Shown: in pieces, positions 36,677 through 38,101 of the stretch
Numbering within the stretch: the first letter of the stretch is position 1
Layout: each line of letters starts with the position of its first letter
Source: Bdellovibrio sp. BCCA
GTDB taxonomy: Bacteria; Bdellovibrionota; Bdellovibrionia; Bdellovibrionales; Bdellovibrionaceae
Direction of reading: 5' to 3'
DNA: 64,000 nt
Assembly (NCBI RefSeq): GCF_037996825.1
Contig: NZ_JBBNAC010000001.1
Coordinates: forward strand, 992,001-1,056,000
Program-made: the position numbers and the translations under genes
The notes under the pieces: generated by a model
Seen by the model: only the letters and a program-made list of their open reading frames with translations
The model's database searches: none
What the model was told of the DNA's origin: nothing

Positions 36677-37735
36677 GTGGTTCATGATTTCGATCCGTTT
36701 GCTCTAAGAATTTCCGGCGATTTTGGAATTCGTTGGTATGGCCTGTCTTACATGATGGGTTTTATCTGTGCTTATTTGCTGATTACTTGGTTGGCAAAAA
36801 GACAAAGAGCAGGCCTCACACCACAAATGGTCGGCGATTTTATCACGTATGCGGCGATCGGTACTTTGGTGGGCGGTCGTTTGGGCTACGTGATTTTCTA
36901 TGGTCCGGATCTTTTCATGAAATTTAAATCCACATTTCCGTACTGGGGAGTGTTGGCGGTGAACGAAGGCGGTATGGCGAGCCACGGAGGCATGATCGGG
37001 ATCGTGCTAGCGTGCTTGTTGTATGCTCGTAAATATTCTGTGAACTCTTTGTATCTTTTGGATCTTGTCGCAGTTTCTGGACCGATCGGTGTTTTCTTTG
37101 GTCGTATTGCCAACTTCATCAACGGAGAACTTGTGGGACGTCCTTGTGATTCGACGTTCCCTTTGGCTGTGAAATTCCCGCAAGATATTTTGCAGTGGCC
37201 ATCACAAGATATGACAAAATTAACGGAGCTTGTGCCTGTTGTTGAAAAAGTCGGCGTGAACCGTGAACAATGGTTGGAGCTTGTTGATAAATTCCGTTTC
37301 GATATGGTTTCGCGCGATCAGGTTTATTCGATCATGAATAAAGTGATTGAAGGAATTCAAAACGGCAACACGGCAGCAAAAGAAGCGATTGCTCCGCTGT
37401 TGACACCTCGTTATCCGTCACAGCTTTTCGCGGCGTTGGGTGAAGGCCTTTTCTTATTCTTGATTCTTTTCTTGTTGTGGAGAAAACCACGCAAGCCAGG
37501 ATTTATCGCAGCGACGTTTGTTTTGCTCTATGCGATCGTTCGCGTCGGTGATGAACACTTCCGTATGCCAGATGCACACATCGGCTTCCAATGGTTGGGC
37601 CTGACTCGTGGACAGTGGCTTTCAATCGCGATGTTTGCCGTCGGTTTAATTTTGATGTTTGTATGGACTCGTGCGAGTTCACTCAAGATCTCAGGTTGGG
37701 GAAAAGGACAATCCGTTAAGCTGTATCGCAAATAA
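36677..37735 (+). CDS. lgt: prolipoprotein diacylglyceryl transferase
   Basis: Inner-membrane enzyme that transfers diacylglycerol from phosphatidylglycerol to the lipobox cysteine. The signature GRIANFINGELVGRP (canonical GRxGNFxNxE) is near residue 140, and the N-terminal IRWYGLSYMMGF matches the family. Seven or so membrane helices. At 352 residues it is about 60-80 residues longer than E. coli Lgt (291): an extra soluble insert (WPSQDMTKLTELVPVVEK and following) separates the signature from the catalytic-side RYPSQLFAALGEG. The start is GTG with RBS AAAAGGA. Relevant to the several lipoproteins in this window. Confidence 0.93.
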   Translation: MVHDFDPFALRISGDFGIRWYGLSYMMGFICAYLLITWLAKRQRAGLTPQMVGDFITYAAIGTLVGGRLGYVIFYGPDLFMKFKSTFPYWGVLAVNEGGMASHGGMIGIVLACLLYARKYSVNSLYLLDLVAVSGPIGVFFGRIANFINGELVGRPCDSTFPLAVKFPQDILQWPSQDMTKLTELVPVVEKVGVNREQWLELVDKFRFDMVSRDQVYSIMNKVIEGIQNGNTAAKEAIAPLLTPRYPSQLFAALGEGLFLFLILFLLWRKPRKPGFIAATFVLLYAIVRVGDEHFRMPDAHIGFQWLGLTRGQWLSIAMFAVGLILMFVWTRASSLKISGWGKGQSVKLYRK

Positions 37736-37751
37736 ATCTTAACGACGATAC

Positions 37752-37991
37752 GCGAGGAAGAGAGAGTGGGCCTACGGCACTAAAAACTCTCGGACAGTGT
37801 TGAGGGCTCCTGCCCTCAAGCCTACGGCCTCCGCGAAAAATGGCCATCATGGCCATTTTTCCCTCGCGCTTTGAGGGAGCTTTGCTGGCTCCCTTTTTTT
37901 ATTTTTTTAGTCTTCTGATTGCTACTGCTGTTCTTTCTTGGCGCTGTGGAACTCGGTTTTTAGTGCCGTAGGCCCACTCTCTCTTCCTCGC
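37752..37991. repeat. 240-bp element bounded by perfect 36-bp inverted repeats
   Basis: Left arm 37752-37787 and right arm 37956-37991 are exact reverse complements (36/36), for example GTGGGCCTACGGCAC on the left and GTGCCGTAGGCCCAC on the right. Between them are three further hairpins: TTGAGGGC/GCCCTCAA (37800-37819), AAAAATGGCC/GGCCATTTTT (37836-37860) and GGGAGC/GCTCCC plus T-run (37875-37900). No ORF with coding character is inside. It fills the gap between lgt and the papain-like protease gene. It could be a miniature transposable element, a structured RNA, or a composite terminator. Confidence 0.8.
37875..37900 (+). terminator. rho-independent terminator inside the inverted-repeat element
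   Basis: GGGAGC (37875-37880) and GCTCCC (37888-37893) with a seven-base loop and seven T. On the plus strand it can end lgt transcription or an RNA starting in the element. Confidence 0.75.
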
Positions 37992-38072
37992 TAACGTGGT
38001 TGATTTTTTTTGGATAGCAGTGCTGCGTTTTTGCGTTGCTGTTTATCCAGAAGGATTTGAAATCTTTGATGC

Positions 38073-38101
38073 AAAAAAATAAGGGCTCTATAGTAGAGCC
38101 C
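38073..38101 (-). terminator. rho-independent terminator of the papain-like protease gene
   Basis: On the minus strand GGGCTCTA (38101-38094) and TAGAGCCC (38090-38083) form an eight-pair stem with a three-base loop, followed by TTATTTTTTT. The 80 bp between it and the right arm of the element hold nothing clear. Confidence 0.85.

Follow-up and report, generated by a model that had tools for sequence, protein, structure and literature searches.

A palindrome beside lgt in Bdellovibrio is one copy of a dispersed hairpin element with a constant core and locus-specific, covarying arms

The palindrome at positions 37752–37991 of the window (the whole 64,000-nucleotide stretch of Bdellovibrio sp. 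BCCA DNA analysed here) is one copy of a dispersed family of hairpin elements. The constant part of the family is the internal loop CTCRGACAGTCCTCGC / GCTGYGGAACTYG with a variable tip: the core consists of two strands forming an asymmetric internal loop under this tip, and the arms that enclose it are locus-specific. The arms covary, they change in concert between close species, one of them holds the 3′ end of a tRNA gene at certain loci, and their mismatches are asymmetric between the strands. The hairpin element is apparently undescribed so far; a literature search on Bdellovibrio palindromes and sRNAs, on palindromic structured RNAs and on the core sequence, which reached a minority of the subscription journals, returned no description.

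In the window, the arms at 37752–37787 and 37956–37991 are exact reverse complements, as originally predicted (36 nt, 100% complementary, 168 nt between them), and form the sole perfect inverted repeat of at least 14 nt with a spacer of at most 400 in the 64 kb. This is far beyond chance, again in line with the prediction: in 20 first-order Markov copies of the window, the longest perfect inverted repeat with a spacer up to 400 measured 14 nt. The stop codon of the ORF at 36677–37735, which the prediction named lgt, lies 16 bp before the element, and the element's interior holds no convincing ORF. On the plus strand, the order begins with arm X (37752–37787), identified by its gene-proximal side across the family and by the tRNA 3′ end that it holds in tRNA-linked copies; by the copying model described below, it would be host sequence downstream of lgt. 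The first half of core strand 1, TCTCGGACAGT (37788–37798), is conserved in all family members and is followed by a 63-bp second dispersed repeat (37799–37861) and by the remainder of core strand 1, CCTCGCGC (37862–37869), where the covariance-model match starts. A variable apical domain (37870–37939), the length of which varies among copies, leads to core strand 2, GGCGCTGTGGAACTCG (37940–37955), likewise conserved in all members, and to arm X′ (37956–37991), by the same model an inverted copy of X. The RNA fold z is −14.3 for the plus strand with flanks and −12.3 for the minus strand. The latter is apparently the folding strand, to judge from this value and from the mismatch asymmetry, and carries the whole element as 5′-X′-CGAGTTCCACAGC...GCGAGG-(insert)-ACTGTCCGAGA-X-3′.

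The 63-bp insert splits the core between ACAGT and CCTCGC and makes the window copy unusual. It is a second dispersed small repeat, GTTGAGGGCTCCTGCCCTCAA...GAAAAATGGCCATCATGGCCATTTTT, with two hairpins and with copies elsewhere in the same genome and in related ones. The repeat sits at the identical core point in the elements linked to ahcY in two further genomes (G007 and G023), reaches up to about 10 partial matches in one genome (G018), and also occurs alone, some copies being without the core; the loci noted are the window site, L005, L008, L050, L051, L053 and L054. All three predicted inner hairpins are present, at about 37802–37817 (GAGGGCTCCTGCCCTC), at 37835–37861 (GAAAAATGGCCAT/ATGGCCATTTTTC) and at 37873–37895, the last with a T-run and a canonical terminator shape. 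The first two are part of the second repeat, and the terminator shape is part of the variable apical domain. Two more hairpins lie 3′ of the element, one at 38013–38051 (GGATAGCAG...TTGCTGTTTATCC) and one of terminator shape at 38083–38101 (GGGCTCTATAGTAGAGCCC, with a T-rich tail).

A DNA search of the same genome recovers element positions 111–209 with 91% identity at 1245819, after an adenosylhomocysteinase-like gene, and yields short partial matches only at other places. When the matched places are read, they prove to be core copies flanked by long inverted arms that differ at each locus, a pattern hidden from sequence search alone. The absence of further copies and of covariation was to count against the original prediction; copies were found in this genome and in relatives, and the arms covary, as set out below. 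The core measures mostly about 50–53, 64–68 or 97–103 nt in Bdellovibrio and about 28–38 nt elsewhere and in shrunken copies, its conservation being partly built in by the search patterns. A coding role of the long apical domain was rejected, the lengths of 97–103 nt not running in threes and several copies containing stops. Two pairs of elements in opposite orientation, about 100–300 bp apart, were also observed (L197, G019 C1:914027–914468; L205, G006 C1:3425994–3426439).

A covariance model of arms and core matches 23 of the 24 genomes of the genus, with 2–21 copies in each. Across the order it matches 44 of 141 genomes and 20 of 66 genera; of the matches outside the genus, three proved real on reading: one is in G035, and the two in G038 have 39–43-bp arms and a 35-nt core. 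Within the window, the model gives one chance-level match and one match to this element, whose arms it misses owing to the insert. An exact short-core scan of GTDB genomes returns at least 119 stretches. Among the 80 matches listed, most are from Coriobacteriia (Adlercreutzia, Gordonibacter, Olsenella, Collinsella and others), and the other groups are Bdellovibrionales, Omnitrophota, one Planctomycetota MAG, Dormibacterota and other Actinomycetota; names of MAG contigs are record titles, and lone MAG copies could be misbinned. Nearly all of these listed matches have locus-specific pairing arms, usually of 15–45 bp, and a few are weak. An exact-core scan of viral contigs gave no match. Strict scans against Rfam 15 reported only tRNAs at threshold and permissive scans reported chance hairpin families, with no matching family in either.

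The arms pair at nearly every locus. Among 50 distinct elements, the median arm is 33.5 bp long with 1.5 mismatches, and the pairing score is at least 13 in 50/50 and at least 20 in 49/50; mixed pairs, made from arms of different elements, reach 8 at the 95th percentile. For 35 elements placed in register over 29 columns, 93.9% of the cells pair. Each of the 29 columns has changed on both sides, nearly all contain the four Watson-Crick types, and hardly any change is confined to one side. The covariation score of these 35 elements is 1.214, compared with 0.220 for shuffled arms and 0.32 for the best of the slid partners. Since the elements were collected through the core and not through the arms, these statistics are not circular. 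A covarying helix, as expected of a structured RNA, is present in the arms, and templated copying would yield an equal signal.

The few mismatches in the arms are distributed unequally. A-C on the plus strand (G-U on the minus strand) outnumbers G-T on the plus strand by 52:19 in Bdellovibrio and by 90:8 in the multi-phylum set, and by 31:7 once three positions of clustering are left out; orthologous loci contribute more than one element to these figures. The asymmetry points to the minus strand as the folding one, and its folding appears to matter, be it in RNA or in single-stranded DNA. Copies of the shortest class have GC-GAA-GC or GC-GCA-GC as their minus-strand tip. Loops of this type are very stable in DNA too, so the tip is compatible with either form.

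The origin of the arms is best seen beside tRNA genes. Copies lie at tRNA-Leu(TAA) in 12 Bdellovibrio genomes and in another genus (G035), at tRNA-Leu(GAG), and, in another family, at tRNA-Arg(CCT). In these copies, arm X starts inside the tRNA, at the ...GCACCA or GGACACCA end, and continues through the trailer, while arm X′ is the inverted repeat of the tRNA 3′ end and the trailer. A tRNA end is not shaped to suit an element, and X′ is therefore best read as a copy; the three kinds of tRNA site constitute the strongest evidence on how the arms originate. The tRNA-Leu(TAA) of the same genome as the window (L422, G000, C1:1699510–1699605) represents a half site, in which only the trailer equals arm X of G017, without core or X′. 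In G015, a second X′-like remnant lies outside the present X′. At two further loci after tRNA-Leu(TAA) (L420 and L421, in G001 and G019), there are N between the arms, from either an assembly gap due to the hairpin or a withheld stretch.

Outside the tRNA sites, X also lies next to genes. With ORFs called mechanically and orthologues included, an ORF is found within 30 bp of X in 19 of 40 elements and within 30 bp of X′ in 2 of 40, and X often begins 3–17 bp past a stop codon. There are two candidate empty sites. The first, in G006 (L277), has an intact lipoprotein-like gene and no element; in G002 and G023 (L186 and L229), an element lies near the start of the lipoprotein-like gene, with an apparently open frame running through it. 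The second, in G002 (L271), shows an X-like hairpin but neither core nor X′; because about 90 bp of the right flank is missing as well, a deletion is possible. No target site duplication is evident at the two sites, the junctions of which have diverged. A search of the same genome with the lgt arms only found no donor for them.

Between three close species (G002, G006 and G023), the flanks of orthologous elements are 82–99% identical, and the arms are either nearly unchanged or both changed together, with less change in the core and the flanks. In gapped alignments of the arm pairs, 22 comparisons show 0.7 one-sided and 0.2 two-sided changes each, and the other 18 show about 5–12 two-sided changes plus symmetric indels with only about 2–3 one-sided changes; these comparisons, drawn from three species, are not independent of one another. 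More one-sided steps would be expected from slow compensatory drift, whereas copying from arm to arm explains the pattern directly. X has changed as well at the loci with changed arms, possibly through recombination with a divergent copy or through error-prone recopying. The original prediction took the perfect arm identity to mean recent insertion or selection on pairing; the pairing has indeed been kept for long, but that choice omits the option favoured here, concerted copying between the arms.

We put the chance that the arms are templated on the host flank by fold-back copying at the core at about even. The element would own only the short core, and the long arms would not be its own. X would be host DNA beside a gene, often just after the stop codon or comprising a tRNA 3′ end and trailer. 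The plus-strand 3′ end, ...GGAACTCG, would snap back on AGTCC through a self-priming pair between GGAACT, at the end of the second core strand, and AGTCC of the first strand, and would be extended by copying X, giving X-core-X′. Recopying now and then would keep the arms matched and let both change together, and selection at the core would act on the minus strand in its folded form, whether RNA or single-stranded DNA. The copying step by fold-back priming, a mobility of the element and a factor binding its core are all inferred from these patterns. That the whole is a small mobile element of a new kind, the own sequence of which is a fold-back core and the hairpin of which is built from adjacent host DNA with an arm rewritten occasionally, is a tentative reading that falls somewhat short of an even chance. 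Against the copying model stands the change in X, which is faster than a host flank should show. Moreover, the strand asymmetry and the invariance of the core over phyla show selection on the folded strand, which could by itself maintain the pairing.

A search for an enzyme linked to the element turned up no polymerase, nuclease or transposase; the model would need no more than host polymerases at work on a nicked or broken hairpin. Reverse-transcriptase-driven retrotransposition was rejected as the present mechanism, RVT_1 occurring in 4 of the 24 genomes and the element in 23. Stand-alone Y1 (RAYT-like) transposase genes are common in Bdellovibrio, with up to 12 per genome.

The main rival to fold-back copying is the long structured RNA with paired ends that was among the original suggestions, now placed on the minus strand. 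It would be an ancient RNA, 5′-X′-CGAGUUCCGCAGC-tip-GCGAGGACUGUCYGAG-X-3′, of which a protein or ligand would bind the internal loop, while the stems drift by compensatory mutation and copies spread by duplication; from the sequences, this has perhaps a one-in-three chance. The almost invariant core across phyla, the orthologous positions kept across species and the preference for minus-strand G-U over A-C, which persists without the clustered positions, all agree with it. G-U pairs are nevertheless rare (6 of 953 paired cells on the plus strand, about 2% on the minus strand), the copies have no uniform orientation relative to the neighbouring genes, and the two-sided changes come in bursts with few one-sided ones. 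The tRNA 3′ ends within X need copying rather than drift. In addition, none of the elements of G006, taken as HD100, coincides with the 8 attack-phase sRNAs reported for that strain in a study that covers the attack phase and not the growth phase (PMC3627812). The bursts of symmetric change fit another account, in which the palindromes are inherited vertically with no mobility or dedicated mechanism, ordinary template switching during replication matches the arms, and the core is kept for some other reason. Most copies do lie at orthologous sites in G002, G006 and G023, but this account, which we regard as improbable, leaves unexplained the 2–21 copies per genome beside unrelated genes with one core, as well as the spread over phyla.

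The remaining explanations fare worse. In a MITE or a REP/RAYT-type repeat, the terminal repeats would be recognised by a transposase, and both a miniature inverted-repeat transposon and a REP-like mosaic had been suggested for the window palindrome. The copies are dispersed, and Y1 transposase genes (PF01797) are present in 21 of the 24 genomes. The arms, however, are the would-be ends and differ in each copy, which contradicts classical MITEs: they are not terminal repeats. A tie to a RAYT transposase is unsupported, since neither the core nor the inserted repeat lies within about 1.5 kb of any of 30 Y1 loci. This class of explanation is very unlikely. An oversized transcription terminator or 3′-UTR stabiliser would suit the frequent position of X just past a stop codon and the terminator shape inside the window copy. 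A T-run follows the outer arm in only 1 of 79 multi-phylum copies and 3 of 52 Bdellovibrio copies, however, many copies are found between divergent genes or ahead of a start codon, and the short classes are without the inner terminator; such a role for the element is scarcely credible.

Several known systems share part of this organisation. REP/BIME sequences with RAYT (Y1) are likewise short, dispersed, intergenic palindromes in many copies, forming hairpins with mispaired bases, but their stems are conserved among copies and linked to RAYT, whereas those of the hairpin element are locus-specific with no linkage found. MITEs, ERIC, Correia and Rickettsia palindromic elements are also small, non-coding and dispersed, and sometimes lie in frame inside genes, as the hairpin element apparently does at L186 and L229; their copies share the ends or the whole sequence, and those of the hairpin element share the internal loop only. 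Structured RNA candidates of the Rfam type and riboswitch-like motifs similarly combine a conserved internal loop, covarying stems and a wide distribution, and differ from the element in its lack of an Rfam 15 match, its host-gene copies in the stem and its near absence of G-U. The integron attC site resembles the element in that a single strand folds, its stem varies and few of its bases are conserved. The attC boxes lie at the base of the hairpin and belong to cassettes, while the hairpin element has its conserved bases inside and a host-like outer stem. Correction of quasi-palindromes by template switching also rewrites one arm to match the other, and is to our knowledge known as an accidental mutation at single palindromes and not as a dispersed family with a constant core. 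What would be new is that the element owns only its internal loop, while all the kinds compared own their ends or their stem; this novelty depends on the copying model and is about as probable as not.

In conclusion, if the copying model is true, a tiny element makes long perfect hairpins from host sequence instead of carrying ends of its own. With no arms shared between any two copies, its insertion signature would escape repeat finders and transposon classifiers. As the element occurs in human gut Coriobacteriia and in predatory bacteria, the model is testable in cultivable strains. Even under the structured-RNA explanation, the family would represent a folded element conserved over multiple phyla, present in 2–21 copies per genome in Bdellovibrio and absent from Rfam 15.
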